Shown here one piece after another: positions 6,348 through 32,360 of a stretch of DNA of 33,800 nucleotides (positions are counted from its first letter, which is position 1; every line of letters starts with the position of its first letter). Origin of the DNA: Candidatus Iainarchaeum sp. (GTDB lineage: Archaea > Iainarchaeota > Iainarchaeia > JAADDC01). The stretch covers positions 1 through 33,800 of the forward strand of contig JAADDH010000074.1 of NCBI GenBank assembly GCA_013154035.1. Reading direction: 5' to 3'. A program made the translations under genes and the position numbers. The notes beneath the pieces are model-generated. The model was given only the letters and a program-made list of their open reading frames with translations. It did not search any database and was not told the DNA's origin.

Positions 6348-6758
6348 CTAATCGCTTCCGTATTTTATAACCTTAACATAGGCCCAGAATAGAAGAAGCA
6401 CGAGGGTGAATCCACCCCAGCGGAAGAGCACGTCGTGGAGCAGGGGGTTCGGGTGGTTGCTCGTTATCCATATGCGAAGAACGTTGTATGCCTCAAAAAT
6501 CGCCGCCGCCAGCGCGAATCCTATTATTTTCTTTTTGGGGGGTGCAGGGGTGGCGAAGATGGCGGATGCAAGGAGGATCACCTCGTCTATTCCGGTGCAT
6601 GCCCAGATGATGTGGTAGTTGCCGGGGATGATGTTATGTATATGAACGTCTATCCACGCCGCGATTTTGTCCTTGAACGGTGTTATTATCGCCTCCGCAA
6701 TCAGGAAGGGCCCGAGGATTTTTGCAACGGCGCGGAGGAATTCGTTCAGTTTATCCAC
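6348..6758 (-). CDS. Small archaeosortase/exosortase-family (ArtA/EpsH-like) membrane transpeptidase
   Basis: 136 aa, about 4 TM helices; ACTGIDEVILL (candidate catalytic Cys), AYNVLRIWIT (Arg), LLHDVLFRWGGF (His), in the order expected for exosortase/archaeosortase proteins. GTG start at 6758; stop 7 nt before the giant surface protein start. Confidence 0.78.
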   Translation of the reverse strand: MDKLNEFLRAVAKILGPFLIAEAIITPFKDKIAAWIDVHIHNIIPGNYHIIWACTGIDEVILLASAIFATPAPPKKKIIGFALAAAIFEAYNVLRIWITSNHPNPLLHDVLFRWGGFTLVLLLFWAYVKVIKYGSD

Positions 6759-6792
6759 AAGGCATATATATCATTGTAGCCTTTTAGCAGTT

Positions 6793-9072: not shown

Positions 9073-11176
9073 ATTCCTGGGGCTGAAGAAGCCCAAGCAG
9101 GGGAAGAAAAAGTCATCGTCTGAGCAGTTCATAGAGTTCTGCGAGCAGGCGGCGAAGAAGTATCCATACAATGGGAAGATCGCTCCGGAACTACGTCATG
9201 CCCTTGAGTATCTCGAATGGCCCATTGATCCCGCCGCAGTGTATTCTGGCGCGAAACTTGCAGGTCTCTACGCCGCGGTTGCAGGCGTTTTCGTTTCAAT
9301 GATGCTCCTTTACGTCATGTTCATCGAGCCGAACGGAATCGAAGACATTCTCACGTACCCCATGGACTATTTGACGAATCCGATGTTCCTGCTGTTTCTT
9401 TCATTTCCTCTGCTCTTTTGGGCGGGCGGATATTATTCTGTGCTCAGCATGCCGATCTCGGAGGCGAAGAAGCGGTTCCAGCAGGATATGTTCCCCGCGT
9501 TGAGGACATTGGGCTACTTTGTAATGTCTATGAAGCTGGTACCGAATCTAGAGCATGGCGTGAAGTTTGCTACGGAGCACGGTAAGGGGTTCTTTGCGGA
9601 TAAGCTTTCCCGTGTGCTTTGGAACACGCAGTTGGGCGTTCTTCACACGATAGAGGAGGGCATTGACAAGATCGCGTATCAGATTGGATATTACTCTGGC
9701 GAGTTTAAGCACGCTTTGATGCGTGTTCGCTCATCTCTTATGGAGGGAGACGACGCGAAGCGCTACGTCATTCTTGATTCGGCTCTCCGGGAGGCAAAGA
9801 CGGGGATAAAGGAGCGTATGCTCGAGCACGCCGAGTCGCTCTACATGCCCTCCATGCAGTTGTTCTACGTCGGCGTATTTTTGCCACTTCTTGTTTTCAT
9901 TATTCTCCCAATCGGCGCAGCATTCTCCAAGAACGCGATCGTTTCCAGCCCATATTTCATATTTGGTGCGTACGATGTTGCTCTACCTCTGCTGACGTTT
10001 TTCTTTGCGAGGTATATCATCTCCCAGCGCCCGAACGTGTACGAGATGCCATACATTCCTGATTCCTTTGTGAAGGACTATGACAAGATTCGCAGGCGCG
10101 CCATCATTACCGCAGTTATTGCGTTCGTAGCGGTGGTTGCTTTTGGCTATGTTGCCCACCTGTTCCTAGATACTACGCCTCAGCGCGTAGCACCAATGGT
10201 TGGCATGAGTGCCGAGCAGATCGAGCAGATTTTGGCACACCCCAACCAGAACCCATATAAGTATCAGTTTTTGACGCAGAGCTATGATTTCACGCCATAC
10301 GTTCTTATATACTCCGTTTATTTGGCAGTAGCGCTTGCAATATTCGTGTATCTTCGTATGCTCTATGCCCCCAAGGCCAAGCACCAGGCAGACATCATGA
10401 AAATGGAAGATGAGTTCAAAGACGCAGTTTACGTGCTTGCGTCGCGAATGGGAGAGGGCAAACCCCTGGAGAACGCCCTCCTTGCTGTCAATGAGAACCT
10501 TCCTGAGACGAAAATTGCAAAGGTTTTCGAGCGCATCGCATATAACATCCGTGTTCTTGGGCTGACGATTCGGGATGCTGTCTTCTCTCCTGCCTTTGGC
10601 GTGCTGAAGAATATCCCGTCCAAACGCCTGCAAGATGCCTTTGACGTGCTCGTATCGTCTGTGACTCTCGGCACGGAGCTTGCCGCGAAGGCCCTTGTTG
10701 TTCTTTCCGAGCAGCTACGAGATGAAGAGGATGTTGTGAAGGCAATCCGAACTAAACTCAGCGAGATTGCTGGTATGATGATTATGATGGGTATGTTTAT
10801 TGCTCCTGCAGTCCTTGGGATCACGATCGCGCTGGAAAAGGTTATTATGAGCTCTCTTTCAGGTCTTGATCTATCTAACCTCCAAAATAATGGTATTAAC
10901 CAGGCGATGTCTCAGTTCGGCCTAAACTCGGGGATAATGAATAAGATTGGCAATGCGAAGGTTCTTCAGATGCCAGTTTGGGTTTTCCTGGTTTCTGTGG
11001 GCATATACGTGCTCGAGGTCGCCGCGCTACTGACATACTTTTCCATATATCTGCTTAACGGTCGCGATAAGATCGGGATGTTCCTTAAGTTGGGCTACGC
11101 CGTGCTCATTGCGGCGGTGGTTTATATCGTTGTATCCTATGCCTCCCTGCAGATGGTCGGTTCAATGGGGGTGTAA
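9056..11176 (+). CDS. T2SS/T4P inner-membrane platform protein (GspF/TadC/FlaJ-like), 706 aa, probably two T2SF domains
   Basis: Overlaps the ATPase gene; polytopic, with two cytoplasmic helical segments (FQQDMFPALRTLGYFVMSMKLVPNLEHGVKFA... and MEDEFKDAVYVLASRMGEGKPLENALLAVNENLP...). Confidence 0.88.
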   Translation: MASILEFLGLKKPKQGKKKSSSEQFIEFCEQAAKKYPYNGKIAPELRHALEYLEWPIDPAAVYSGAKLAGLYAAVAGVFVSMMLLYVMFIEPNGIEDILTYPMDYLTNPMFLLFLSFPLLFWAGGYYSVLSMPISEAKKRFQQDMFPALRTLGYFVMSMKLVPNLEHGVKFATEHGKGFFADKLSRVLWNTQLGVLHTIEEGIDKIAYQIGYYSGEFKHALMRVRSSLMEGDDAKRYVILDSALREAKTGIKERMLEHAESLYMPSMQLFYVGVFLPLLVFIILPIGAAFSKNAIVSSPYFIFGAYDVALPLLTFFFARYIISQRPNVYEMPYIPDSFVKDYDKIRRRAIITAVIAFVAVVAFGYVAHLFLDTTPQRVAPMVGMSAEQIEQILAHPNQNPYKYQFLTQSYDFTPYVLIYSVYLAVALAIFVYLRMLYAPKAKHQADIMKMEDEFKDAVYVLASRMGEGKPLENALLAVNENLPETKIAKVFERIAYNIRVLGLTIRDAVFSPAFGVLKNIPSKRLQDAFDVLVSSVTLGTELAAKALVVLSEQLRDEEDVVKAIRTKLSEIAGMMIMMGMFIAPAVLGITIALEKVIMSSLSGLDLSNLQNNGINQAMSQFGLNSGIMNKIGNAKVLQMPVWVFLVSVGIYVLEVAALLTYFSIYLLNGRDKIGMFLKLGYAVLIAAVVYIVVSYASLQMVGSMGV

Positions 11177-11178
11177 TT

Positions 11179-11631
11179 GTGAAGGGCCAAGAGTATACGG
11201 TGATGAACTACCTTGTGTGGGCAGTGTTCGCAGTGGTATTTGCGATTGTCGTCAGGATGGTCGCGTCGAAGCTTGCAACGCCAATGGAGCCAATTTTTTG
11301 GAAGGAGACGCAGACGGTGTTCCTCAGCGCCTATAAGGCATCGCAGACTACCCTTGGGGCTGCGTGCAGATGCGCGTCGTCTAACGGCCCGATTGCATAT
11401 TCTCCCGGTTTCTATATGGATTCTAAGTATGCTGCTGATATGCTGTCCAGTGGGAGTCATGGTTCTGTGCCCGTTTTCTTCAAGTGCGGCCATGGCTTTC
11501 GCTGCGGAGACAGCGGAGATTATGTGAGGGCAAAAGCCAACGTGCGTGCTACACTTACCGTGTGCTGCAATGGGATCCGTTGCGTTGCATACTTCAACAT
11601 TCCTCCGGGTGCCACCCCATGCACGCCGTGA
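11179..11631 (+). CDS. Pilin-like protein, cysteine-rich (8 Cys after the N-terminal helix)
   Basis: GTG start; MKGQEYTVMNYLVWAVFAVVFAIVVRMV: short basic leader with KG/Q then a hydrophobic helix, as in class III archaeal prepilins; directly after the GspF gene. Confidence 0.75.
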   Translation: MKGQEYTVMNYLVWAVFAVVFAIVVRMVASKLATPMEPIFWKETQTVFLSAYKASQTTLGAACRCASSNGPIAYSPGFYMDSKYAADMLSSGSHGSVPVFFKCGHGFRCGDSGDYVRAKANVRATLTVCCNGIRCVAYFNIPPGATPCTP

Positions 11632-11667
11632 TACGTTTTTATTTGAGGACACCCTTTCATACACGAG

Positions 11668-12129
11668 GTGATTCGCGTGAGGCGTGGACAAGCATTCGAA
11701 GTATTTAGGCTTTTGATTGCAGCGGTTGTTGCAGGTGCAATTCTCATGGTTTTGCTCAACATCCTTGGGGGGCTTACGATCACCACCCAGGATCCAGACG
11801 ACTTCATCAAGCAGTCTATCAAGAGTATGGCTACCGACGGTGGTGTGAAGACCTCCAGCACGATAGTGTTCAAGCCGGGCATGGCAGTGAACCTCAAGGC
11901 GGCCGCGGCAGCGGCGACCCTCAACCCTGATTGCGTTAAGAAGGCATCTGATGATAGCATGTGCAAAAGCGGCGGGGCTGCTGATGGCTGGAGTTGCAAT
12001 GATGGTATCTGCACATACTCCGGGGGCAAAGTGCGCGGATATATAGCAGTGGTTTGCAATCCTTCAAGCGGGAGCGACACTTCTTGTCCTGTGACGTGCG
12101 ACGTGTACTTCTGCCAGGGTGCACCGTGA
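11668..12129 (+). CDS. Pilin-like protein, cysteine-rich (8 Cys in the C-terminal half)
   Basis: MIRVRRGQAFEVFRLLIAAVVAGAILMVLLNILGG; RRG/Q prepilin-like cleavage context (alternative GTG start at 11677). Confidence 0.78.
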   Translation: MIRVRRGQAFEVFRLLIAAVVAGAILMVLLNILGGLTITTQDPDDFIKQSIKSMATDGGVKTSSTIVFKPGMAVNLKAAAAAATLNPDCVKKASDDSMCKSGGAADGWSCNDGICTYSGGKVRGYIAVVCNPSSGSDTSCPVTCDVYFCQGAP

Positions 12130-12167
12130 TCTCACATCTTTTTATTTTCCCACATCTTTTTCTACAC

Positions 12168-12302
12168 ATGGATGATCGCGGCTCGTCGGACTGGACGGTC
12201 ATATATCTCCTTGTGCTCGCGGTGATTGCTGCGATCCTGATGTTCGGCGTGATTAAACCCATGTATGCGCGGGCTGGAGCGCAGGTGGGGCGTGCACCAT
12301 GA
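12168..12302 (+). CDS. Very short pilin-like protein (44 aa)
   Basis: MDDRGSSDWTVIYLLVLAVIAAILMFGVIKPMYARAGAQVGRAP; the ORF track gives a longer in-frame start (12054), but ATG 12168 is 26 nt after ttttattttcc and fits the operon. Stop overlaps the next ATG (ATGA). Confidence 0.65.
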   Translation: MDDRGSSDWTVIYLLVLAVIAAILMFGVIKPMYARAGAQVGRAP

Positions 12303-12877
12303 GGCGCGGCATAGAGGGTGTGTTCCAGCTGCTCATTGGTGTATTTACTGCAGCCATGATTGTGGCGGTGGCGTACCGTGTTCTCGGCCAGGTGCAGATG
12401 AACCGTTGCCATGAAAACTGGCAGGATTCGGCGGTTCAACTCGCCAACGCAATTGGGGATGCTGCCCGCGCATCCGATGCGACGAATTTCGTGCAGATTG
12501 CGGGTCGTTGTGGCTCAGCAAGGTATGTGACTTACCGTATTGTTACGTACTCTGGGGCAAAGATTTGCAACGCTGTATGTCACAAGCCAGTCCCCACCTG
12601 CTATTCAGTACAGTATACGGCATACTCTGGGCAGGGCGGAAAATTTGCCATGTTGGATCGGGGGCACTACTGTTTGGATATATCTCCATATACTTACTAT
12701 CGGCTCCAGCAGTCCACCCGTGAGCCGTGCACATCTTCAGGCGTCCGTTACCATAACGTTACGCAGGACCTGTTGGATGGAGAATTTAACGTCCAGTTAT
12801 CTACACTCAGTGCGTATGTCCGCGCTACTGGATACGGCACAGGGAAGTTGATTTTTGTCTGCGCGCAGGGTGATTGA
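12299..12877 (+). CDS. Pilin-like protein, cysteine-rich (8 Cys)
   Basis: MRRGIEGVFQLLIGVFTAAMIVAVAYRVLGQVQ; RRG/I prepilin-like N-terminus. Confidence 0.75.
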   Translation: MRRGIEGVFQLLIGVFTAAMIVAVAYRVLGQVQMNRCHENWQDSAVQLANAIGDAARASDATNFVQIAGRCGSARYVTYRIVTYSGAKICNAVCHKPVPTCYSVQYTAYSGQGGKFAMLDRGHYCLDISPYTYYRLQQSTREPCTSSGVRYHNVTQDLLDGEFNVQLSTLSAYVRATGYGTGKLIFVCAQGD

Positions 12878-12879
12878 GA

Positions 12880-13413
12880 GTGATGGAGTATATCCTTTCC
12901 AAGACCGTTATGCTCATATTCCTTCTTCTCACTGTTGCGGCGTTCGTAATGGTCAAGGACGGCCTTGCGAATTATTTCGTCCAGCAGTCCGCGGTGCAGT
13001 TTGCCAAGACGTCAGTGGGGCGCATATCCTCGATTGTTGCCGATTCGACGACCATGTCCTACAAGGAAGTAGTGCCTATCGCCCCAGGCATCTCTGGAGG
13101 GGGCGAGTCCATGGCGTATGATGTGAATATTCTGTGCAGAAGGGTGGATCAGCACACTGTTCTCATAGGTTTTGGCGTATACTCGCTTGTTGGTAAGTTG
13201 GTGGCCTTCGCCCCCGCCCAATTGCACGTGAATATGGGGACACTCGAATTGAAGATTGCCTATCACGACAATGGGTTTGTTGCAATGAGTACCAAGGATC
13301 ACTATATTATTATTTCCAAATCATCGGATAGTACGGGCAACGTTGTTGTTGAAATTTGTCCATCAGTTGATGGTATTGGCTGTGATGTGACGCCCAAGGA
13401 TGTATGTGATTAG
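12880..13413 (+). CDS. Pilin-like protein with N-terminal hydrophobic helix
   Basis: MMEYILSKTVMLIFLLLTVAAFVMVKDGLANYFVQQSAVQFAKTSVG...; start ambiguous among 12874 TTG, 12880 GTG and 12883 ATG; sits in the pilin array. Confidence 0.7.
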   Translation: MMEYILSKTVMLIFLLLTVAAFVMVKDGLANYFVQQSAVQFAKTSVGRISSIVADSTTMSYKEVVPIAPGISGGGESMAYDVNILCRRVDQHTVLIGFGVYSLVGKLVAFAPAQLHVNMGTLELKIAYHDNGFVAMSTKDHYIIISKSSDSTGNVVVEICPSVDGIGCDVTPKDVCD

Positions 13414-16651: not shown

Positions 16652-17125
16652 ATGGGCATAGTCGCGGCGATACTGCTGTTTCTCCGCAGCGTTTTTGGAG
16701 TGTTTGTAGTCGCCGTTGTTCCATGGATTTTCGTAGAGTTGCTGTCGCCGTTTTTCTCGGGTAAAACTCTTGGTCGTGGCCTTGCTTGTTCCGCGGTGCT
16801 TGCGTTTCTCGCAGTTTTGCTCTACAAGGTCTATCTGATCTATACTGCGTATCCCTGCCCATCCTACACTCTTCCGAACGTGCAGGTTGAAAACTGTGGT
16901 TTTTCGGCTGTGCTCGCCGCATTGCCCGGTATTATATCGCACGTCATCCTTGCATGGTTTTTGCTGCTGCTCTTCATCTCGGTTGGCGCTGTAGCCTACG
17001 TTTATATTCCAGAGGATCTTAATATTCATCTGAGGCGGTATCTTGCCACGTTCATTGCCGTTGCCGTTGCCGTTGCCTGGGTGGTGATATTTCCATGGAG
17101 CGCTCCCCTCTTGCTTGGCTTGTGA
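16652..17125 (+). CDS. Polytopic membrane protein of unknown function
   Basis: MGIVAAILLFLRSVFGVFVVAVVPWIFVELLSPFF...; about 4 TM helices; ATG 16652 lies 26 nt after TATA-like ctttaatatc; overlaps the start of the next gene. Confidence 0.78.
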   Translation: MGIVAAILLFLRSVFGVFVVAVVPWIFVELLSPFFSGKTLGRGLACSAVLAFLAVLLYKVYLIYTAYPCPSYTLPNVQVENCGFSAVLAALPGIISHVILAWFLLLLFISVGAVAYVYIPEDLNIHLRRYLATFIAVAVAVAWVVIFPWSAPLLLGL

Positions 17126-20100
17126 TTCTCCTGCTTGCCGTTCCGTCGGCCCACGCTCTCTGTGGCGTGAGTCAGATCCCCCTATCTCAGTATAACCGCT
17201 TTGAAGTCGCGATCCACGATTCCAATGGGGCCATCGATTTCAACACGCTCCGCTCGCTCTTTCCTGCAAAGGTATCGAAACTCGACGTTAATTCGACGGT
17301 AATCGCAGACCCGTCCATGAAGAGCTACTACGTGGATGATTTCAATGGTTACGCGGCGGATCCCAAGACATCCGACCTCTTTATTAACCGATCCACATCG
17401 AAGGGTGCCCCCTTTCTTATCGCGGGCGTTGTTGCTTCCGAAATGCGCATCGCGAAAGACACGCCCAATGGTCCTGGATATGGGGAGATGCTTCACGAGC
17501 ACTATACGGGGCGTGCTGAAACGTCTGTATGGAACGTGCAAGGCATGAAGACTGCAGCTTCTGCCATGTATGATAACTTTAAGCTCCTCACGGGCATGGA
17601 ATCCATTCTCAGCCACTCGCCGCGCATAGTCAACGTGCTGCGTTCAGGGGATTTTAACGTCGTTATTGTCTGCGCATCGAATATTTGTAATCAGGAGGTT
17701 TATTCGCTCTTTACGAAGTATTTGAACATAGGGACGAGCTCGGAAATGTTTGCAGAGTTCGGAATTACGTCCATGTGGAACAAGGTTCTGCCATCTTCGT
17801 TCAAGCGTAGTGTCCGTGCAACTGCGCTGAAGATAAAGAGCACGACGCCTGTGTCCAAATTCATTGACAAGTGGAATGTCCTTGCTGAGCATGTTCCTGG
17901 CGTGCGCAAGATCGAGACGTTCCAAGATCAGATCATGAACGACGTTGCCAAGCAGTCCGATGATGTGAAGCAGGCGTATGTTCAGTGTTTGCTCACGAAC
18001 AAGTGCAGCGGGTTGGAGGATGCTAAGATTCTGGAGAAGCTAACGCCGGAGCAAAAGGCCCGCCTTGCCCGCGCTTTGACTGAATCTTCGGTGGCCCTGG
18101 AGGATCTTTCTAAGGTGCTCTCCTCTCCCGAGGTGCGCGCTCATCTAGATGATGCTTTGCGCGCCATGTCTCCCACCCAGCGAGAGCAGACTGTGGTGGC
18201 CCTTAAGACGTATGATTCTCTTGCTTCCGGGCTGGACGATGCTGCTCGACAGCAGTTGGATGATATTCTGGAGCGTGCGGCGAAGGGAGAGCCCGTTGAC
18301 GACCTGGTAAAGGAGTTTGCCGAGAAGTATGGCGCGCGCCGCCAGACCTTTGCAGCTCTGCAGAAGGCTCTCTTCTCCCAAGACGTGATGGAGCGGTTGA
18401 GCCCGAGTTATCGCGAGATCCTGAATCTTGCTAAGAAGACGGGCGCCTCGGAGAGCGCGGTTTACAAGGGGCTGGACGACGTCCTTCGTGCTGCAGCTGA
18501 AGGCAAGGCAGATCCTAATACGCTTGTCGCAATCTTCATGAAGGATACTGGGATTCCCAACAGTCCCGAGCTAAAGTCTGCGATCGAATCACTGGTTAGT
18601 AATGCGAAGTCTACGGGCTTCCTCCAGGACTACGTGACCGCATCCCAGATGCTCGGAGAGAGTGGCAGCCTCCGTCTCCAGCAAATACTTGCTGGCACAT
18701 ATACTGGCGAGCTCTCGCAATCTCAGGCCATCGCATCTCTTCAGGCGCTCACATCCAAGCCGCTTAATGCTGGCGCGATTCAGGCGCTTCTCCAAAATCC
18801 TGAAGAGGTAAAGAACCTCGTTGCGCTCCGCGATTTCTATTCGGCTCTTCAGTCTGCGGATCACGGGAGTTTGGAGATTATAGCGAAACAGTTGGAGGGT
18901 GCTGGATATCCAGATCTTGCGAAGGCCCTGACTGCCAAGGATTTCACTACTTTCGCCGACACTCTTTCCAACATGCCCGATGAGGACTGGACATATCTAC
19001 GTAGTTTCTTCGCCAACGCACGGAGCACGTCTGCCGATGTCCAGCGGGCATCAACTGAGCTCCAGAAGATCGCCCCCCTCGACTTTGGTTTGGCCGGTGC
19101 TACCCGCGAGTGGACCGCTGATCTCCTCCAGGACGGTGCGCTTCGGCGAGTTTTCAAGGAAGGCGTTGTGGTTCCTGGTTTGATGTATATTGTGCGCTCG
19201 GGCTTCCTCCAGACGAGTCAGCAGATTCCCGGCGCGGTTGTGGGGTTCTCAAACCTGGGTGCGCTTGCAGGGCCTTATCACGTTCCAAAGGAGTGGAAAT
19301 TTACGCGCATTGCCCCGACGGAGGGTCAAATGGGCGATGATGCCTTTGTGGACATCCTCATCGGCGGCGGTTCGGATCCCGGAGATTTCTTCAAGACTGT
19401 GCTAAGCATCTTCCCCTGGAGCATGCTGGAGGACACCGTGTTCCACGGCCATCAACCAGGAATCATGTCTGCTTTCGTTGTGGGCAAGCAGCAGGAGCGC
19501 ATGTACGAGATGGGCCCATCGCTTGTGAGCCTTGCCGTCGCTGAGAAGTCCTGCCCCACATGCACACTCTCCTCGCTTGGTAACGGCCACTTTGTTTTCT
19601 CCGCGCAGGGTGCGTCGGTTACCGGTTCTGTCGTTGAGGCTCAGCGGGATAACATCGGCGCGACATCCATCGTGTTTGCCCACCACGATAATATAGACTT
19701 CGGTGACGCATCTGTGGATATTGCCAAGGCTGCTACGGACGGCGAGGCGTGCGAGCAGAAGTGTACCGTCGTTCGCTCGCTGAGGAAGTTGTCCGGGAAT
19801 CTCCTTGGTGATCCGACACGTGCCGCCTTTGTGGCGACTTTCTTGGAGAGTCTCGGGTATACTGCCTTTGGCCCAGGCTTCCTTGTGTTCGATATGCCGA
19901 TACAGATGAAGCTCTATGGGGGTTGCCACGACTGTGTTGATACTTGGGGCGGATATTACATCCACTCTTTTGTCCCCTACGTTAAGCAGTCTGACGAGAC
20001 GTCCATTCTTGCGAACAACCCGTCCGCGTCAATAACCGATGCGATCCACCGCCTGATCCCAGTTGCATCTCTTGGGAGCCTCGGGAACGAACTGAATAAA

Positions 20101-21534
20101 TTTGCATCCAAGTTGAAGGCGAATGAGCTGGAGAAGGGTGCCCCTTACGTGGATTTCTACCTGAACAACTTTGATAGTGGGGAGCTGCTCTTCACAAAGC
20201 TCGTATCCGTTGTTATGGGTCCCGGAGAGCAGATGCCCAGCAAATACAGCGAGCAGGGTTCGATAGTTCTTGGCAAGGGTGGTCACCGCCTTGTGATCAA
20301 CACGAAGAACGGAACGGTATCCATGGATGGCAATACGCTCATATCTGCTCCAGACCACGTGCGGCTCTACAGTGTGGATCCAGAGGTGCCGGGCATTGTT
20401 ATTCCCGCCACTCTTGTGGTCACGTCCTTTGCACACTCCCCTGCGATTACAGCACACTCACGAGCGGACTACAGCTTTGATGACAATGCTTTCATCTCCT
20501 GCGTTAAGTCTCATTTTGCCGATCTTAATGCAGGGGATATCACGTTGAAGGAGGCATTCGGGGATATCATCGAGGTGCACACGACTACGGGGCAGATCGC
20601 ATTCGGCAAGACCGGGTCGACAGCCACTACGCAGGGGTGGTCCGGGAAGATGTCCGTGGTGGACGTTGACGGTGCCGACAAATCCTACGCTGTCGAGGGC
20701 GATGCTGTTGATTTCGGTATTGAGGGCAACGAGCTGACACTGAAGACGAACCACAAAGTGCTCGGCATGCTGGACAGCGTTGTGTTCCAGAACGGCGTTA
20801 TTATACGCAAGGGGAACTACCTCCTTGTTTGGCGTAAGTGGCTCGTCCGTGTTGTTGCACAGGACATCGGTCGCGTTGATATGATTCCGAATGAGAAAAA
20901 CGGAACGGTGCTCCCGCAGTTTGTTCCCAAGCCTGATGCCAGCCCCCAGACTAAGCAGGACGTCAAGCGTCTCAACGAACTGATAAAGCAGATGGGTGGA
21001 ATTACCGCCGTGGATGCGCAGCATGGCTACTTCCAGCTCTTTGACAAGAATGGGCAGTTATGGATGCGATACTACGACGCGGATACCAACAAATTCGTGG
21101 AAGCACCCGTTACCGGAATGCACCAGGATCCCAATGATCCCAGCACGTTCATTGTGGATACGCCCAAGGGTCAGTATCGCGTCTCCCTTCCAATTGATTC
21201 CAACGGGGCTGTGCACCTAAAGATCGACGGGAAGGATCTGGGGATTGTGACGAGAATGCAGGGCCCGAACGGCGCGCTCATATACGATCCCAACAACGGT
21301 ACGTGGTCTTTGCTCAATGGGCTTATTGCGGGACTGAGCAAGGCTTTCAGCAACGGCATAAAGATCTCATTTAACGGAGCGGGCTATGCGAATATGACTC
21401 CGGCGAACTATTCCAACATATACAGGAATATTTCCCCAATGAGCCACTCGGGAATCAGCCTGCCCTTGTTGGATGGTTGGGAGGTTGCAGCGCTGCTCGT
21501 TGCGCTGGCGGCGGTGTATGCAATTACCCGATAA
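17095..21534 (+). CDS. Large secreted/surface protein (1479 aa) with signal peptide, helical-repeat middle, beta-rich C-terminal part and C-terminal TM helix
   Basis: MERSPLAWLVILLLAVPSAHALCGVSQ signal peptide; CPTC, CHDC and other paired cysteines; C-terminus LPLLDGWEVAALLVALAAVYAITR*. Confidence 0.9.
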   Translation: MERSPLAWLVILLLAVPSAHALCGVSQIPLSQYNRFEVAIHDSNGAIDFNTLRSLFPAKVSKLDVNSTVIADPSMKSYYVDDFNGYAADPKTSDLFINRSTSKGAPFLIAGVVASEMRIAKDTPNGPGYGEMLHEHYTGRAETSVWNVQGMKTAASAMYDNFKLLTGMESILSHSPRIVNVLRSGDFNVVIVCASNICNQEVYSLFTKYLNIGTSSEMFAEFGITSMWNKVLPSSFKRSVRATALKIKSTTPVSKFIDKWNVLAEHVPGVRKIETFQDQIMNDVAKQSDDVKQAYVQCLLTNKCSGLEDAKILEKLTPEQKARLARALTESSVALEDLSKVLSSPEVRAHLDDALRAMSPTQREQTVVALKTYDSLASGLDDAARQQLDDILERAAKGEPVDDLVKEFAEKYGARRQTFAALQKALFSQDVMERLSPSYREILNLAKKTGASESAVYKGLDDVLRAAAEGKADPNTLVAIFMKDTGIPNSPELKSAIESLVSNAKSTGFLQDYVTASQMLGESGSLRLQQILAGTYTGELSQSQAIASLQALTSKPLNAGAIQALLQNPEEVKNLVALRDFYSALQSADHGSLEIIAKQLEGAGYPDLAKALTAKDFTTFADTLSNMPDEDWTYLRSFFANARSTSADVQRASTELQKIAPLDFGLAGATREWTADLLQDGALRRVFKEGVVVPGLMYIVRSGFLQTSQQIPGAVVGFSNLGALAGPYHVPKEWKFTRIAPTEGQMGDDAFVDILIGGGSDPGDFFKTVLSIFPWSMLEDTVFHGHQPGIMSAFVVGKQQERMYEMGPSLVSLAVAEKSCPTCTLSSLGNGHFVFSAQGASVTGSVVEAQRDNIGATSIVFAHHDNIDFGDASVDIAKAATDGEACEQKCTVVRSLRKLSGNLLGDPTRAAFVATFLESLGYTAFGPGFLVFDMPIQMKLYGGCHDCVDTWGGYYIHSFVPYVKQSDETSILANNPSASITDAIHRLIPVASLGSLGNELNKFASKLKANELEKGAPYVDFYLNNFDSGELLFTKLVSVVMGPGEQMPSKYSEQGSIVLGKGGHRLVINTKNGTVSMDGNTLISAPDHVRLYSVDPEVPGIVIPATLVVTSFAHSPAITAHSRADYSFDDNAFISCVKSHFADLNAGDITLKEAFGDIIEVHTTTGQIAFGKTGSTATTQGWSGKMSVVDVDGADKSYAVEGDAVDFGIEGNELTLKTNHKVLGMLDSVVFQNGVIIRKGNYLLVWRKWLVRVVAQDIGRVDMIPNEKNGTVLPQFVPKPDASPQTKQDVKRLNELIKQMGGITAVDAQHGYFQLFDKNGQLWMRYYDADTNKFVEAPVTGMHQDPNDPSTFIVDTPKGQYRVSLPIDSNGAVHLKIDGKDLGIVTRMQGPNGALIYDPNNGTWSLLNGLIAGLSKAFSNGIKISFNGAGYANMTPANYSNIYRNISPMSHSGISLPLLDGWEVAALLVALAAVYAITR

Positions 21535-21892
21535 TAATGTGCTCAGAGCGTCGAATCGTGGCTTGGGGGATTTCCCCACCGTTTATTTCCTCAATCTCTC
21601 CTATTGCACTGAACTCCAGCCGTAGTCTGGCTCGCGTGATTTCCTTTTCATCGCCGAAGTGGTTTGCGGATACCCTGCTTTCTCCAATGTCCTTCTGGAC
21701 GATTCTCGCGACTATTCCGATCGTTCCTCTCGCCAGATCTTCGTAGTATTCGTGCGTGATGAATATTTCGTCCCCCTCTTCGCATGCCCTTGCCGCGCGC
21801 ACGTTTCTACAGGATACGAGCTCCACTGTAACGCTGCCCCTTGTGCGCAGTCTTCGTAGCACCTCTTCCTTTATGGATGAGATTACGCGCAT
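21524..21892 (-). CDS. Conserved-looking hypothetical protein, 122 aa
   Basis: MRVISSIKEEVLRRLRTRGSVTVELVSCRNVRAARACEEGDEIFITHEYYEDLARGTIGIVARIVQKD...; ATG 21892 preferred over the longer ORF because it directly follows the PAC2 gene. Confidence 0.7.
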   Translation of the reverse strand: MRVISSIKEEVLRRLRTRGSVTVELVSCRNVRAARACEEGDEIFITHEYYEDLARGTIGIVARIVQKDIGESRVSANHFGDEKEITRARLRLEFSAIGEIEEINGGEIPQATIRRSEHIIIG

Positions 21893-21896
21893 TTGA

Positions 21897-22592
21897 TCAC
21901 CCGTACATTGTACTTGCAGCCTTGCTGTGCTGCATAACGGAAGATACGTCCTTTTCAATTGCTTTTGCCCGCTCTAGCAGGGAGTCATAGTTTACATCGA
22001 GTTCGAGCATCATGTCTAGCATCTGTATTATCTCCGCCGCAGCCCGGAAATCTTCTTTTGCGTGGAGTGTTCCCAACAGCAGAAGGACCGGCACGCCCTC
22101 TGCCCTTCCGCTGACGAGTAGCGATGCAGATATGCCTGTCGTGACCCCCTTTGGAACTGGCTTGATGCCGTATTCATCAAGTGTTCTCAGGAGTGTGTCT
22201 TGCGATACAACCCCGTATATATCATCCTGGCCGGCGCTCGGCATGAGCACGCCCGCAATCGAGATTATCTGCTTTATCCCCGCCTTTTTAGCGTATTTCA
22301 CCAGTTCTGTTCCGAGCTCCTTTGCAGAACCCTCCTTGAACATGATTTCCGAGAGAATTACGGCAACTTTCTTCTTGGGGTCGGCGTATATGCGCACAGG
22401 GGATTCTGCAACTCCGTTGGCTATTGCGGATACTGCTGGGAATGTATCTGAGGTTACGTGGCCCACTATTTTCATATTTCGCGTTTCCACGATGTGCTTC
22501 GCCACGATCGGACCGACCACGCCGATTCCGGGGAACCCTGCAATGAGCGTATATCCTTTCAGACTGCCCTTCACACGAATATCTACTGTCAC
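21897..22592 (-). CDS. PAC2-family protein (archaeal proteasome-assembly-chaperone-like)
   Basis: MTVDIRVKGSLKGYTLIAGFPGIGVVGPIVAKHIVETRNMKIVGHVTSDTFPAVSAIANGVAESPVRIY...; characteristic GFPGIGVVGPIV and C-terminal helix. Confidence 0.88.
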   Translation of the reverse strand: MTVDIRVKGSLKGYTLIAGFPGIGVVGPIVAKHIVETRNMKIVGHVTSDTFPAVSAIANGVAESPVRIYADPKKKVAVILSEIMFKEGSAKELGTELVKYAKKAGIKQIISIAGVLMPSAGQDDIYGVVSQDTLLRTLDEYGIKPVPKGVTTGISASLLVSGRAEGVPVLLLLGTLHAKEDFRAAAEIIQMLDMMLELDVNYDSLLERAKAIEKDVSSVMQHSKAASTMYG

Positions 22593-22619: not shown

Positions 22620-23306
22620 TTACATGCCCATTGCGATGGCGTAGCTGGTTAGCCCCATCCCCGTTAGCACCGCGGCGTAGTATAGCGCGTGTTTCATTCT
22701 ACCGTCGAGAAGCGCGAGAAACACCGCGGATTCCACCGCCAGGATAACGATGTATGGCAGTATACTCGTACGTATCGCCGCAGATATTGGGTTCCATACT
22801 GTTGGGTCCACCTTTGCAGCCATTCTCGCAGATATTCCGAGAAGTGCGGGTACAAACACGCCTGCAGATAGCAGAACGTTGTAGCGCTGTAGTGCTAGCC
22901 CCGCTCGCCGCTGCCTATCCATGTCCACGACCGCTTCGATGTCCTCCGCGGTTTTTCGTATAATCCTGTTCCAATCTGCTCCGCTTTCGTATCCTGCGAT
23001 GATCATCTGGATCGCGTGCTCGAGTAGTGCTGTTGTTCCCTCCGCGGCAGATCTCAGCGCCCTATCCGGTGGAATCCCCCTGTCGATCAGTCTCTTTGCC
23101 TTTTTGAAAACGTCGGAGACTGGCCCGTATCCGTGCGAGAGTTGGTCTGCAACGTCCCTCAATCCATGTATTGGCAGCGTTGAAAGCTCCAATAGTGCTA
23201 TGGGAAGGATTTCATTTATTTTTGCTCGCCTCTGCTCCCGCAGGTAGTCTCTGCCGATGGGAATGGTGATGAGCGCCACGAGCAATATTATGTATACGAT
23301 CTCCAT
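22620..23306 (-). CDS. GspF/TadC-like T2SF-domain membrane protein
   Basis: ILPIALLELSTLPIHGLRDVADQLSHGYGPVSDVFKKAKRLIDRGIPPDRALRSAAEGTT..., flanked by TM helices; downstream of a second T2SF gene and an ATPase. Confidence 0.8.
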   Translation of the reverse strand: MEIVYIILLVALITIPIGRDYLREQRRAKINEILPIALLELSTLPIHGLRDVADQLSHGYGPVSDVFKKAKRLIDRGIPPDRALRSAAEGTTALLEHAIQMIIAGYESGADWNRIIRKTAEDIEAVVDMDRQRRAGLALQRYNVLLSAGVFVPALLGISARMAAKVDPTVWNPISAAIRTSILPYIVILAVESAVFLALLDGRMKHALYYAAVLTGMGLTSYAIAMGM

Positions 23307-23309
23307 GCC

Positions 23310-24062
23310 CTATCGCCTCATGTATGCGGGTATTCGCGTGTATATGTATGCGAGTGACAGTCCGCTAGCGATGGGAAACGCCCCTAGAAACAGCATCTGG
23401 ACGTCTCCGGTACTCATTTCCATATCCAGTATTGTCGATCCTATCATCACATACATTGCGAAGAGCGCGGGAACCAGTGCAGCCACCGCGACGAATATGA
23501 GCGTGAACATGGTCAGTTCCGATGAGAATTTCTTGCTTTCCGCTTTATGTATTGTGATGAGCTCATCCGCCATTTTCTTCAGTGCCGTTGCTTCAGACCC
23601 GCTTTGATAGAGTATTGCTATGTGCAAAAAAGCTCGCCGCACGATGTCTGATGCGTATCCTTCCCCCATTGATTTTAATGCTCTATCCAATGGGATTCCG
23701 CGGCTGTACAGTTTCAAAGCTCTACTGATGTCTGCGCCCAGCGTTTTGGATAGGTGTGCTGCGTCTCTAAGAGCCGTGTGGAACTCAATTCCCGCTTCTA
23801 CCTCCGATGCGATACTCCGTAGCACGTATGGGAGATCTGCCTCTGCCCTTTCTGCGCGGATCTTTGCGGCAATTGCTGGTGCGTATAGCCCGGCCGCAGC
23901 CACTACGATTCCGATTGCAATTGCGGTTAGTGCCGTAGCCCCCGATGCAGCCGCTGCGATTGCTGCGCTGGCACCCAGGGTTGCTGTAGCTGTTACGAAC
24001 TCTTTCTCGGATATGTGCCAGATCCACCCGGACAGTACTAGATATCTGTGGATCGTCTCCAC
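23310..24062 (-). CDS. GspF/TadB-TadC-like T2SF-domain membrane protein
   Basis: LPYVLRSIASEVEAGIEFHTALRDAAHLSKTLGADISRALKLYSRGIPLDRALKSMGEGYASDIVRRAF...; overlaps the ATPase gene. Confidence 0.83.
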   Translation of the reverse strand: METIHRYLVLSGWIWHISEKEFVTATATLGASAAIAAAASGATALTAIAIGIVVAAAGLYAPAIAAKIRAERAEADLPYVLRSIASEVEAGIEFHTALRDAAHLSKTLGADISRALKLYSRGIPLDRALKSMGEGYASDIVRRAFLHIAILYQSGSEATALKKMADELITIHKAESKKFSSELTMFTLIFVAVAALVPALFAMYVMIGSTILDMEMSTGDVQMLFLGAFPIASGLSLAYIYTRIPAYMRR

Positions 24063-25564
24063 GTCTCCACCTCTTTCGCGTATTCTTCTATGCTTGCCGC
24101 GCGAATCTTCCTAACTGCAGCGACCCTTTGCTCTATTTCCTGCTGGTTTGGCTGATTTCCCCTGATTTCTATTTCCGTGATTCTGCGCACCTCTTTGCCA
24201 CCTTGCCGCAGCCTGCGCTGTATTACAATTACGTCGAGGGCGTTGAGGTCCTCTTCTGGTATGCCCATACTTCTTATTCTGTTTTCTGTCTCTTGCACGG
24301 TCCTTCCGTGCATTGTTGCGTAAGACCCCCTTCCTTGCCCTGCCAGCATCGTGTCGAAGAGTGCGCGCATCTCATTAGGTCGCCTTACTTCCCCCACAAC
24401 TACGCGGTCCGGTCGCATTCTGAGTGTATCGTATACAAGCTCCTGCATGCTCGTGTTTTCGTCGGGTATTAGACGCACCCTATGGGGATGGGGGATCCAT
24501 ATTTCCGGCGTTTCCTCCACGAGGATTATGCGCTCGTCAAGAGGAATGAATGCCATCACTGCGTTCAGTGTTGTGGTTTTACCAGATCCTGTATTGCCTG
24601 CTATTATTATGTTTAGATCGTGATCTATTGCCCACCACAGCTTTGCAATATCTTCTGGAGTGGCCGTGTTCGTGCGGAGCAAATCCCACGGTGTCCAACG
24701 CCTCTCTGTGAACCGTCTTATCGTTAGTGCGTGGCCTTCACGTGACAGGGGCGGAATCACTGCGTGCAACCTCGATCCATCTGGCAGCGTTGCATTAACC
24801 CTTGGTGTTTTGAGCGTTATCCTGCGCCCCATGCTTGCGGCGTACTTGTTTACAATGTACTTAAAGTATTCTTCCGTCCAAAACGCGAGGTTCGTTGTTT
24901 TCCATCCCTCCCCGCGTATGTATATGCGTATGGGCTCCTTGAGCCGCACGGTGGCTATCTCTTCGATCTCCAGATCCTGCAAAAAGTCTAGGGGTCCGTA
25001 GCCCTCATACGTCCGTTTTATCCACCACATTACCCTTTGTTTTGTATCATCAGCTATTTCTCCGTATTCGTACTCCAGCCCTGCGAGTATCTCATCCCAT
25101 GTGAACTCGCCCTTCGTGCTCTGGTATCGCTCAACTACTTCCTTGAGTATTGCAGCGTCGCTCATCCGTATTTCTTCTGTTACTACCTTGTATTCTCCCC
25201 CTTCTAGCACTGCCCAGCCGATAACGTTCCAGATTTTGTTTAATTCGCTTTTACTATACTTTATTCTTGCCAGACCTGCCAGTACGCACTGCGGTTCGTC
25301 AAAGAGGGCGAGGCATAGATCACATTTGAATGCTTTTCCCGCTTTGATCTCTATTGCGCCGTATGGACAAGCCCCCACGCATTTCCCGCAACCGTCGCAT
25401 TTGTCGTAATCTATTGCTAGTATTCCGTCGGACACCTCGTATATTGCTCCTTTCGGGCAGGCTTGCACGCACGGCGCGTCTTTTGGGTCGCAGTGCATGC
25501 ATTTGGACTCAGTGAGCTCGTATGGGCAGATTTTTGACAGGTCCGCCTTTGCCTCAATCTTCAT
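24038..25564 (-). CDS. Fusion protein: N-terminal polyferredoxin (HycB/DmsB-like 4Fe-4S) module plus type II/IV secretion ATPase (TadA/FlaI-like)
   Basis: KCMHCDPKDAPCVQACPKGAI...KCDGCGKCVGACPYGAI...KCDLCLALFDEPQCV, then Walker A IAGNTGSGKTTTLN, ILVEETPEI, LRMRPDRVVVGEVRRPNEMRALFDTMLAGQGRGSYATMHGRT. ORF can start at 25612; ATG 25564 (MKIEAKADLSKICPYE) preferred. Confidence 0.93.
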   Translation of the reverse strand: MKIEAKADLSKICPYELTESKCMHCDPKDAPCVQACPKGAIYEVSDGILAIDYDKCDGCGKCVGACPYGAIEIKAGKAFKCDLCLALFDEPQCVLAGLARIKYSKSELNKIWNVIGWAVLEGGEYKVVTEEIRMSDAAILKEVVERYQSTKGEFTWDEILAGLEYEYGEIADDTKQRVMWWIKRTYEGYGPLDFLQDLEIEEIATVRLKEPIRIYIRGEGWKTTNLAFWTEEYFKYIVNKYAASMGRRITLKTPRVNATLPDGSRLHAVIPPLSREGHALTIRRFTERRWTPWDLLRTNTATPEDIAKLWWAIDHDLNIIIAGNTGSGKTTTLNAVMAFIPLDERIILVEETPEIWIPHPHRVRLIPDENTSMQELVYDTLRMRPDRVVVGEVRRPNEMRALFDTMLAGQGRGSYATMHGRTVQETENRIRSMGIPEEDLNALDVIVIQRRLRQGGKEVRRITEIEIRGNQPNQQEIEQRVAAVRKIRAASIEEYAKEVETWRRSTDI

Positions 25565-25883
25565 TCCATACCAACTCGTCGCCGATTCGTATGGGCCAAT
25601 CCGTTCTTGCATCCAGCTCTATGACAGTCTCGCAGTCTACGGGAACTATCGCCCATGGCTGAAGCGTTTTTATTGCTTTGACGCGGTTTTGCTCATCCAG
25701 GCACACGATCAGGATTGGAAAGAAGCAGAAGAATCCGTGGAACGCTTCCCGGCCGACGTGAGGGAATACTAGTGCCCCATCGTATCTCGTTTTGAACATA
25801 AGCCCTGTTGCCCGCTTCCAGAAACTGTCTGCCACTTCCACGTGCTCTACTATTGTCGCTCCATTTGTGCGGTTGACCAGCAC
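25554..25883 (-). CDS. DUF192-family protein
   Basis: VADSFWKRATGLMFKTRYDGALVFP...FHGFFCFFPILIVCLDEQNRVKAIKTLQPWAIVPV..VIELDA; typical DUF192 layout; GTG start at 25883. Confidence 0.85.
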   Translation of the reverse strand: MLVNRTNGATIVEHVEVADSFWKRATGLMFKTRYDGALVFPHVGREAFHGFFCFFPILIVCLDEQNRVKAIKTLQPWAIVPVDCETVIELDARTDWPIRIGDELVWNED

Positions 25884-28546: not shown

Positions 28547-29568
28547 TGATACGTTTGGATGATGTTCGGGAGCGGGCGAGGGCCGTCCTTCCATCCACTG
28601 CATATCAGCCTTACAGCGATTCGCCCACCATTCGTTCCTACACGAATTGGGATGCGTTTGAGGATGCATTCTCCGCAGATCACTGGACTGTTGGCCGTGT
28701 TTCTGGCGCTACTCCCACCGATGCGATCCCATCCCTTAGCTTTGATCCGTCGTCAAACAGGGCCCTTGCCCATCACTTTGCCAGGTTACCATCTTTCCAT
28801 CTTTGGGATGGGTCTGACACTGTGGCCCTTGAAGCGAGCGGGAATCACACTGCGCAGCATGTAGTTTTTTGCATACGGGAAGATGCTTCCATTCTGCTTA
28901 AGGATATTGCACCATACTCAAAGTCCGCGACGCTGGATGTGCTCGTTCGCCCCGGTGTTTCTGCGGATCTCTCTCTTTTGGTTCAGGGGGCTGCGGTACA
29001 GTATGTTCATTTACGTGTGCACCTGGGCGCTTCATCCTCTTTTTCGTCTCGGCTTGCCGTGGTCGGGAAAAATACCCATGTGCACTACGAAGTCTTCCTC
29101 AACGGCGAAGGTGCGTCTGTGGATGTTTCAGGGGGCTCTGTGGGCGGTCGCTCTGATGTGATAACAGACGTATTTACGCGCTCCTCTAACAACAGGGCAT
29201 ATGTGCGTCATGTTCTTTTCTCTGCTCCTGGCGACTTCCTCGTTCACAGGGGGGTGATTCGCGTTGAGCGCGGTGCTGTTGCCGCGGATGTAGACATGGA
29301 CTCTGCATTTCTTACTACAGGGGGCTTAGCCGTGTCTGTTCCGCAGCTAGAGATTCTGACAGATGATGTATCCCACGCAGCGCACCGCTCCAGGGACCTC
29401 TCCCCCAGTTCCGAGCAACTGTTTTATGCACAGACGCGTGGCGTGCGCTCTGCTGAGTTCATGCAGATGTATGTGGACAGCATTCTCCGTTCGCGCGTCG
29501 GGTCGCTTGCAGACGAGGACATTGTCATATCTGCGATTAAATCCTTTTCAGAATCTCTTCCGCGTTGA
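28546..29568 (+). CDS. sufD: SufB/SufD-family protein (SufD-like)
   Basis: YVRHVLFSAPGDFLVHRGVIRVERGAVAADVDMDSAFLTTGGLAVSVPQLEILTDDVSHAAHRSRDLSPSSEQLFYAQTRGV; next to sufB. Confidence 0.88.
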   Translation: MIRLDDVRERARAVLPSTAYQPYSDSPTIRSYTNWDAFEDAFSADHWTVGRVSGATPTDAIPSLSFDPSSNRALAHHFARLPSFHLWDGSDTVALEASGNHTAQHVVFCIREDASILLKDIAPYSKSATLDVLVRPGVSADLSLLVQGAAVQYVHLRVHLGASSSFSSRLAVVGKNTHVHYEVFLNGEGASVDVSGGSVGGRSDVITDVFTRSSNNRAYVRHVLFSAPGDFLVHRGVIRVERGAVAADVDMDSAFLTTGGLAVSVPQLEILTDDVSHAAHRSRDLSPSSEQLFYAQTRGVRSAEFMQMYVDSILRSRVGSLADEDIVISAIKSFSESLPR

Positions 29569-30355
29569 TGTGCTTTAGAATTCGCTCTACGGGTACGGGA
29601 TACGTTCGCAAGATGTCCGGATCGTAGGGAATCCGCCCGATGTATGTGCCGCCCCTTTCCGTGAACGTGTTTACGATATCCTCTACCCTCTCCTCTGCAA
29701 GGTCATATCTATTTATTAGGAACAAGAATGGCACGTTGAAATGTTTTAGGACTGAGACGACCGCTTCAGCGTCAGATATTCCTGTGGGCGTGTTATCCAC
29801 GACTAGAATTGCAAGATCTGCGCCCCTTATTGATGCGATGACCGGGCAACCTCTGCCTGCCGCCGCGTCTATTAGTTGGATGTCGCGCTTCTCTTCTTTC
29901 CCTCTCCTGTCTGCAAGATCTCTAAGCTCTGCCACGATCTTGCCAGATCCGGATCGTCCAGGTTCCAGTTCTGCGGTCATCAGGGGGACGTTGTCCCACC
30001 TGTATTCCAGGATCTCAGCACCCTTTACGTTTTTCAGCCTGTAGCTCTTTGGAAATTTCTTTACGCAGACGCCGCACCCCTCGCAGAGCAACTCGTTCAC
30101 GTTTCCATCTGTGCCGATCGCGCCAAATGGGCAGATTTTTGGATCCGTGTTGCCACCTACGTATTCTGCAACCACTAATCCCCGCCAGTCTTCCTTTGTT
30201 ACTGGCCTTTCTAGCCCCAGCGCCAGCGCTAGGTTTGGTGTATCCACATCCGCATCTATGAGCACTATTCTATCCTTTGGCATGGCGTGGGCGACTGCTG
30301 CTGTAATGCTCGTTTTTCCTGCGCCCCCCTTTCCGGAAACAACTGTGATTATCAT
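29537..30355 (-). CDS. MinD-superfamily P-loop ATPase with inserted ferredoxin domain
   Basis: MIITVVSGKGGAGKTSITAAVAHAM...LIDADVDTPNLALALGL...CPFGAIG..LLCEGCGVC...; start set at ATG 30355 (overlaps the previous gene stop). Confidence 0.9.
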   Translation of the reverse strand: MIITVVSGKGGAGKTSITAAVAHAMPKDRIVLIDADVDTPNLALALGLERPVTKEDWRGLVVAEYVGGNTDPKICPFGAIGTDGNVNELLCEGCGVCVKKFPKSYRLKNVKGAEILEYRWDNVPLMTAELEPGRSGSGKIVAELRDLADRRGKEEKRDIQLIDAAAGRGCPVIASIRGADLAILVVDNTPTGISDAEAVVSVLKHFNVPFLFLINRYDLAEERVEDIVNTFTERGGTYIGRIPYDPDILRTYPVPVERILKHINAEEILKRI

Positions 30356-31146
30356 TGGATCACCAGCGGAGCGAACCTCCCCTGCGCGTATGCTCTTGCG
30401 AAGTCTGGGGAGTATGGTATTTTTTTCAAGGCGTATCCGTGTTTCTCCGCGATTTCTGTGATTCTTTGCTCGTAGTGTTGGGATATCCCCCACTTGTTTG
30501 CATAGATCTCCGCCGGTTTTTTTAGTCGCTCAACGAGTTTTACGATTTTTTCAAGATCGTGAACTCCATAGGGCGTCGGTTCTGTCACGATTGCCACTCT
30601 GTCCGCTGGCAGGATTGCGCGCACCACGTTGCAGTGGATGCCCGCTGCGGTATCTATGATTACGTCTCCCTTTGCTTTGTTCAGTGCAATTTCCAGTAGT
30701 TTGGACACAATGGGCGCCGTTTCCTCCACGCCAGGTAGCGCCACTCCGTCGTATATTGTGATTTCTCCCGTATGTCCCTGTCTTATGGTTCCTATCTGCT
30801 CTTCTACCTCTTCTATTGCCCCGACGGGACAGGCATCCTTGCAGAGCATACATCCGACGCAGTTTTCCTCAAAGAAGAGAGGTATCTTTCCGGGAATGTG
30901 TACCAGCGCCGCTACGGGGCAGGCCTGCGCACATAGCCCGCATTTTATGCACTTCTCCTCGTTTATGCGCGGTATCTTTTTTGTTACATCTCCGATCGCA
31001 GTCATCTCCGCGCCGAGGAGTATTGCAGCATTTGGGGCCTCTACGTCGGCGTCTACGTACGTTGCCTGCCCCATCCGCTGGGCGATGCTCAGGGCGACAC
31101 TTGTCTTGCCTGTGCCTCCCTTTCCCCCAGTTACTGTCAGAATCAT
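30352..31146 (-). CDS. MinD-superfamily P-loop ATPase with inserted 2x[4Fe-4S] ferredoxin domain
   Basis: MILTVTGGKGGTGKTSVALSIAQRM..VDADVEAPNAAILLGAE...EKCIKCGLCAQACPVAALVHI...ENCVGCMLCKDACPVGAIEEV. Confidence 0.93.
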   Translation of the reverse strand: MILTVTGGKGGTGKTSVALSIAQRMGQATYVDADVEAPNAAILLGAEMTAIGDVTKKIPRINEEKCIKCGLCAQACPVAALVHIPGKIPLFFEENCVGCMLCKDACPVGAIEEVEEQIGTIRQGHTGEITIYDGVALPGVEETAPIVSKLLEIALNKAKGDVIIDTAAGIHCNVVRAILPADRVAIVTEPTPYGVHDLEKIVKLVERLKKPAEIYANKWGISQHYEQRITEIAEKHGYALKKIPYSPDFARAYAQGRFAPLVIQ

Positions 31147-32360
31147 TCCTTCTTCACCGTTGGTGCGTGGAGCTCCTTCAGTTTGCCTGACAGCATTTTC
31201 TGTATCTCTTCTTCCGGATCGTCACCCTCTGCTTGATATACTAGAACCATGGCGTCCCGCAGCGTGTGGTAGGAGATTTCTCCGATGTTTTTCACGATCA
31301 CCGCGTATGGCTTTGTCCTGAGTACTGTTTTTGCGGCTGCCAGGCCCCGGCGTACCTTTCTCTTCAGCGCCTCGTTTTCTATCGTGTCGATTCTTTCAAT
31401 GCCTCCGTCTGCTCTGTATACTGCGAATTTCGGCGCCGTGGCGAACGTTTTGGATATTTTTCCCGTTTCGTCGATGGGAATTACTACTATTTTTTCCTTT
31501 GGCTCTTCCTGTTCCACGAATACGCGGAAATCTTCAATCTCTGGGATTGTTAGGACGTATTCCCGTATGCGCCTGGCCACTTCGTCTGCCTTTCCAACGG
31601 GCACGTCCGCGGGAATCGTCACGGTCACTTCTCCGAAGACCATAGGCCCAGATTTCCTCAGTTTCAGATCTTTGAAACCGCTTATTTCGTCGGCGTGCTT
31701 CAGTATTTCTTCTACTTCCTTCTTTGTTTCCTCGGGGGCTACGTCCATAAGTGCGAGGATTGCTCCCCACGCAGTCTCCAGGCCTATTTTGAATACCCAT
31801 GCTGACACGAGTACCGCACCGACGCCCTCTGCCCAGGGGATGTGCAGGTATGCGCCTGCGACGATCGCAGCGAATACGACGATTGCGGAGAGTGTGTCTG
31901 CCATCGCCTCGATTGAGACTGCCTTGAGTGCCTGGGAGTTAGATGCGTCCGCTGCTTCTCCTTCTAGCTTTGACAGGTAGTACGACGTGATTGATGCTAT
32001 AAGTGCTACTCCTGCCGCCAACCACGCATCGTTTACGGTGGTAGGATGTTGGATTCTGTGGATTCCGTCCAAGAACAGCTCGAACGCCCCAAATATTACG
32101 ATACCTGCTACGACTAGTGCCACCAGCGATTCAGCGCGATAGTACCCATAGGGGAATCGTTCGTCTGCTGGCCTTCTTGCTATCTTTAGTCCAATCCACG
32201 TGCCTAGCGTTGTAAGAACATCCACTGTGGAGTGCAAAGCGTCTGCGAGCAACGCCGCAGAGTTTGTTACGAATCCGACGATGCCCTTTGTTATTGCGAG
32301 CGCTGCGACGATAAGCGTGGCCTTCTGTGCTGCCTGCTCTCCGTGCTCCAGATCTACCAC
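31143..32360 (-). CDS. Cation diffusion facilitator (CDF) transporter fused to a C-terminal NifX/NifB-type (dinitrogenase Fe-Mo cofactor) domain
   Basis: CDF: TNSAALLADALHSTVDVLTTLGTWIGLKIARRPADERFPYGYYRAESL; C-terminal: KIVVIPIDETGKISKTFATAPKFAVYRADGGIERIDTIENE...AVIVKNIGEISYHTLRDAMVLVYQAEGDDPEEEIQKMLSGKL. Confidence 0.92.
   Translation of the reverse strand: MVDLEHGEQAAQKATLIVAALAITKGIVGFVTNSAALLADALHSTVDVLTTLGTWIGLKIARRPADERFPYGYYRAESLVALVVAGIVIFGAFELFLDGIHRIQHPTTVNDAWLAAGVALIASITSYYLSKLEGEAADASNSQALKAVSIEAMADTLSAIVVFAAIVAGAYLHIPWAEGVGAVLVSAWVFKIGLETAWGAILALMDVAPEETKKEVEEILKHADEISGFKDLKLRKSGPMVFGEVTVTIPADVPVGKADEVARRIREYVLTIPEIEDFRVFVEQEEPKEKIVVIPIDETGKISKTFATAPKFAVYRADGGIERIDTIENEALKRKVRRGLAAAKTVLRTKPYAVIVKNIGEISYHTLRDAMVLVYQAEGDDPEEEIQKMLSGKLKELHAPTVKKE

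Follow-up and report, generated by a model that had tools for sequence, protein, structure and literature searches.

A DmsB/NarH-type iron-sulfur module fused to a type IV filament-like motor ATPase in small-genome archaea

Nucleotides, partner proteins, phospho-binding domains and disordered tails are known regulators of pilus and archaellum motors. Among the described members, FlaI (4ii7), Archaeoglobus GspE (2oap) and TadA/CpaF (8rkd, 9e24) are built as a three-helix bundle (3HB) followed by an N-terminal domain (NTD) and an ATPase core with Walker A and B motifs and a His box. The N-termini of FlaI are the tips of the hexamer crown and have been proposed to lock into loops of the platform (PMC4307647), and the CpaF 3HB is predicted, with lower confidence, to touch helices of the T2SF platform (PMC12019362). 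Some CpaF proteins carry an additional N-terminal module, disordered in class II (IDR) and phospho-peptide-binding in class III (FHA), and truncation of the IDR reduces pilus dynamics, not ATPase activity; no Fe-S class is mentioned (PMC12019362). A 2016 census of archaeal type IV pili likewise makes no mention of ferredoxin or Fe-S (PMC4858521). The closest Fe-S modules are those of NarH, DmsB, PsrB/NrfC, FdnH and HycB/HydN, which share a four-motif order with a swapped fourth ligand; in NarH, the ligands are residues 16, 19, 22 and 263 for FS1, 26, 244, 247 and 259 for FS2, 184, 187, 192 and 227 for FS3, and 196, 217 and 223 for FS4 (PMC5338063). Finally, the ATPase ABCE1 has at its N-terminus an Fe-S domain with two clusters, to which a structural and no redox-catalytic role is ascribed (PMC8153317).

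The protein analyzed here has the motor architecture of FlaI, GspE and CpaF and, unlike type IV filament ATPases, an Fe-S module at its N-terminus. It is encoded in a 33,800-nucleotide stretch of DNA (the window) from a Candidatus Iainarchaeum genome of 1.01 Mb. The earlier note had placed the gene correctly at 24038-25564 without giving a strand, which is minus. The open reading frame spans 24038-25612 (524 aa), and the plus-strand frame across it is riddled with stops; the true start is most likely the ATG at 25564, where conserved homology begins, yielding a protein of 508 aa (24038..25564). Residue numbers run from this start; Pfam spans, counted from 25612, run 16 higher. The protein consists of the Fe-S module (residues 13-93, 12 Cys; 25286..25528, minus), supported by alignments, a Cys matrix, a pairing test and comparison with NarH; a linker with a near-invariant GW (116-117) and a predicted 3HB (24965..25219, minus); and the NTD and ATPase core (residues ~201-508; 24041..24964, minus). 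Pfam assigned Fer4_11 at 33-111 (E 2e-11, over the curated cut-off), which, with the NarH alignment, bears out the note's reading of a HycB/DmsB-like module joined to an ATPase. In the same frame, T2SSE (PF00437) matched at 222-486 (E 2.4e-34, 119 bits against a cut-off of 24.9), and the ATPase is complete as claimed, with Walker A GNTGSGKTTT at 323-332, the Walker B Glu E392 in VVVGEVR, and the His-box H419; G323, K329, T330, E392 and H419 do not vary over the aligned fused set. Scores fell far under the cut-off for the TadA equivalog TIGR03819 (177 of 373 bits) and for the equivalog NF058587 of the archaellum motor FlaI (180 of 550 bits).

An AlphaFold2 model built from 36 aligned sequences (pLDDT 92.8, pTM 0.79) has archaeal GspE 2oap, FlaI 4ii7 and CpaF 8rkd as its best solved matches in Foldseek. 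Between the Fe-S part and the NTD, the model contains helices at 134-149, 156-167 and 172-187, which we read as a predicted CpaF-type 3HB. With the crown tips of FlaI proposed, and the CpaF bundle predicted, to contact the platform, the Fe-S head may by analogy be placed at the platform-facing rim of the hexamer. Class II and class III CpaF likewise have a module added at the N-terminus of a comparable motor; in the fused protein, that module is Fe-S. ABCE1/Rli1, a P-loop ATPase whose N-terminal domain holds two [4Fe-4S] clusters, is a works-like analogue only, an ABC ATPase of ribosome recycling from an unrelated ATPase family.

The window protein contains the motifs C22xxC25x6C32xxxC36P, C56xxC59xxC62xxxC66P and C81xxC84x8C93, and a further conserved ligand, C13P. 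The earlier note had recognized the three motifs and counted them as two complete sites plus an additional one; the motifs stand, the count does not, since C13P had been missed and the ligand sets are three, all complete: FS2 (C13, C81, C84, C93), FS3 (C22, C25, C32, C66) and FS4 (C36, C56, C59, C62). FS1 is absent. Motifs II-IV of the fused proteins align with NarH 184-263 in a profile alignment, and the ligand Cys of relatives number 16, 12 or 8. The window module, as its ligand pattern indicates, is a truncated 16-Cys (four-cluster) polyferredoxin that keeps three complete ligand sets: with 12 Cys it falls outside the four-motif, four-cluster definition of the NarH/DmsB family and has the swapped fourth-ligand topology of that family.

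Cluster assignment was examined by scoring all 24 possible pairings of motifs over 38 proteins, L203 of genome G112, which misaligned, being left out. The NarH/DmsB pairing (swapped fourth ligand, I-IV and II-III) performed best, leaving 2 of 152 clusters partial, a count that is not a set of independent trials because the losses are few events (at least four, FS1 perhaps lost twice by the tree). Both partial clusters belong to G103. The arrangement in which each motif binds its own cluster was rejected, as 40 of 152 clusters would then be partial. All 16 Cys are present in 11 Iainarchaeota proteins from seven families and in most proteins of a second phylum. In the five genomes of the window genus and in the Forterrea family, the missing ligands are exactly I1-3 and IV4, which together make up FS1; the sister genus g2 additionally lacks II4 and III1-3, or FS4; two genomes (G100, G102) lack II1-3 and III4, or FS3; and L203, read by eye, keeps motifs I and IV only, hence FS1 and FS2, with FS3 and FS4 gone. 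FS2 is present in every fused form, complete save in G103, where three of four ligands remain. Each loss event takes out a complete ligand set of the NarH topology, so the clusters are very probably bound, and lost as units. Such removal of whole clusters suggests that the clusters are real and that motor action depends on iron-sulfur chemistry. The G103 protein (L193) is the only fused protein with partial sets, II1 being replaced or shifted and IV2 changed from Cys to Gly; 3Fe-4S or altered clusters are possible there.

The earlier note had proposed a search for the architecture and its operon context across archaea, which found both conserved and the fusion in three phyla. Independent in-frame orthologues have identities of 81, 70 and 66% within the genus and of ~35-48% outside it. 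A profile of the Fe-S part alone matched within the T2SSE frame in 24 of 93 Iainarchaeota genomes, from nine families (one match, G004, is cut by a contig end). The remaining Iainarchaeota orthologues begin at the conserved GW linker region, and no Fe-S open reading frame was found near them, one- and two-contig genomes (G012, G013) included. A pattern scan over 85,462 species returned 80 loci, 12 of them fused, all from Iainarchaeota save SMBSF43 (contig JAIOSL010000038.1), a member of the second archaeal phylum. There, 16 of 19 genomes carry the orthologue, 14 of the 16 with the module fused in frame: the module lies in one frame from the N-terminus in 13, is shortened in G112, split in G116 and missing from G105. 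Separate homologues, which would have spoken against the fusion, are not the rule, the sole unfused match to the module profile in Iainarchaeota being a generic 199-aa polyferredoxin (G032) and just one of the 16 second-phylum orthologues being split. In that one (L202), module and ATPase occupy neighbouring frames that overlap, through a natural split or through a frameshift in the linker. In a third phylum, recovered in a domain-wide sample, one genome (G1178) has two fused copies and other members are unfused. G1178 is a 3.8 Mb archaeal genome, and of its two fused ATPases (L221, L244), one lies behind a proline-rich tail of ~150 residues. Samples of 285, 246, 250 and 148 genomes from four other phyla gave no match at the strict threshold, a search that had no positive control and could miss divergent fusions. 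Viral contigs gave no relative. The fused set includes Forterrea multitransposorum, which NCBI lists under Iainarchaeota, and the complete Forterrea chromosome CP045477. The best-matching named relatives bear Micrarchaeota or Diapherotrites labels; as all these genomes fall in a single class, the lineage is read as Ca. Iainarchaeota.

In a tree of the ATPase part, fused and unfused Iainarchaeota orthologues form one clade against the paralogues of the window genome (100/100), and in a quick tree with the other phyla, fused and orthologous unfused rows again form one clade (SH-aLRT 100). In the latter, G1178 splits off first and unfused rows are nested among fused ones, with many inner forks weak. 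This nesting fits an old fusion and several losses; the sequences fit one ancestral fusion followed by repeated loss of the module, gain and loss being formally inseparable.

Like the motors of type IV filaments, the fused ATPase adjoins two T2SF genes. As the earlier note had stated of the downstream pair, the next two genes match PF00482: T2SF protein a (23310..24062, minus) and T2SF protein b (22620..23306, minus). They are followed by a PAC2-family, proteasome assembly chaperone-like protein (21897..22592, minus), whose place behind the T2SF genes is conserved in two phyla, and by a DUF473 protein (21524..21958, minus), which some members of both phyla also have downstream of PAC2. On the other side, a DUF192 gene (25554..25883, minus) shares 11 bases with the start of the fused gene and keeps this position in many relatives. 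The order [DUF192]-ATPase-T2SF-T2SF-PAC2-[DUF473] is common to fused and unfused Iainarchaeota and to the second phylum, and the T2SF pair is kept beside the ATPase in most relatives with readable flanks; in G1178, it follows one of the two copies, and PAC2 was not seen. Several orthologous lineages lack the module and keep the same operon, so the machine as such can do without it, and its role is at most that of a modulator.

The operon probably encodes a machine for secretion or for the assembly of a filament. A prepilin scan of the locus stretches found no prepilin gene in the operon of the window, and found prepilin-like genes (a KGQFF-type start, then a hydrophobic stretch) upstream of the operon in SMBSF43, G111, G103 and G116. 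A second type IV filament-like cluster lies elsewhere in the window (6667-13413, plus), with a divergent 801-aa T2SSE ATPase (6667-9072), a 706-aa T2SF-like protein and two prepilin-like proteins, at 11179 (KGQEYTVMNYLVW..) and 11668 (RRGQAFEVFRLLI..). G010 has, next to the fused gene, an 802-aa ATPase with a T2SF pair of its own. The window also encodes a predicted secreted protein of 1479 aa (17095-21534, plus), which has a hydrophobic stretch at its C-terminus and matches no Pfam family; several relatives, fused as well as unfused, have a homologue close to the ATPase operon, and the protein is possibly a surface partner of the machine.

Our main reading, to which we give a probability of about 0.5, is that the Fe-S head stabilises or redox-gates the coupling of a type IV filament-like motor to its platform. 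The fused protein would act as the motor ATPase of a type IV filament or secretion-like machine, with the downstream T2SF pair as its platform. Its head, a degenerate DmsB/NarH-type ferredoxin predicted to bind three [4Fe-4S] clusters in each subunit of the window protein and four, three or two in those of relatives, would sit on the hexamer crown formed by the 3HB, where related motors touch the platform. Intact clusters would hold the head in a shape that lets ATP hydrolysis couple to the platform, and cluster loss or oxidation would change this coupling, so that the machine would be fully active only in reduced, iron-sufficient cells. Cluster occupancy of the head may be read from the ligand pattern, and redox state or Fe-S supply would be the signal that controls coupling. 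More tentatively, these proteins may form a new motor class, old in several small-genome archaeal phyla, in which the redox or assembly state of a polyferredoxin, varying from four clusters to two around a conserved FS2, gates coupling.

The main rival, possible and rather doubtful, is a purely structural, ABCE1-like head whose clusters hold a rigid lever or docking surface, redox state being irrelevant. ABCE1 is a precedent, and the loss of FS1, FS3 and FS4, each somewhere with the protein kept, suits a scaffold better than a conductor; the clusters of a scaffold would, however, be expected to be fixed in number, and here both number and identity vary. The present sequence data would fit structural and redox-responsive roles alike. 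Quite unlikely is electron transfer, in which the head would exchange electrons with a partner in the membrane or at the surface, as a wire or extracellularly along a filament. The homologous modules of NarH, DmsB, FdnH and HycB are electron wires, but the fused module differs in sitting on a motor, having no catalytic partner and having lost whole clusters (FS1 in the window). The chain is shortened at either end or broken midway (FS1; FS1 and FS4; FS3; FS3 and FS4), no oxidoreductase catalytic subunit occurs among the operon neighbours (DUF192, T2SF, T2SF, PAC2, DUF473), and orthologues without the module retain the operon. An end-to-end wire is thus unlikely, as clusters at the end and in the middle of the chain can be lost and the neighbouring genes include no oxidoreductase partner. 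The idea of a relic, a once-useful module decaying by neutral loss, would account for the recurrence of cluster and module losses over the clade and is very unlikely: the losses are cluster-wise and nearly clean, FS2 persists in all fused members, and dN/dS in the Fe-S part is ~0.03 against G003 (approximate, as dS is saturated), a value that argues for strong purifying selection on the remaining module within the window genus. An artefact, the frameshift or join of two genes that the earlier note had named as a refutation and that the adjacent frames of G116 might recall, is ruled out by one open frame conserved in dozens of independently assembled genomes, a complete chromosome among them.

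A motor that binds Fe-S clusters would put a surface machine under the direct influence of redox or iron status, in small-genome archaea whose life is thought to be one of attachment to hosts. The losses of whole clusters provide a natural series of four, three, two and no clusters on one orthologous ATPase and operon, which makes the role of the head directly testable by swaps and cluster-specific mutants. Both halves of the protein are known from elsewhere. The open-access papers searched contain no description of the two fused, of the spread of this architecture over three phyla or of its erosion by whole clusters; entries for such proteins may already exist, without remark, in domain databases.

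Elsewhere in the window, two adjacent MinD/Mrp-type ATPases are encoded at 29537-31146 (minus), one of which (30352-31146) has clear inserted ferredoxin motifs, and a CDF cation-efflux transporter (31143-32360, minus) is fused to a C-terminal dinitrogenase iron-molybdenum cofactor (NifX-like) domain.
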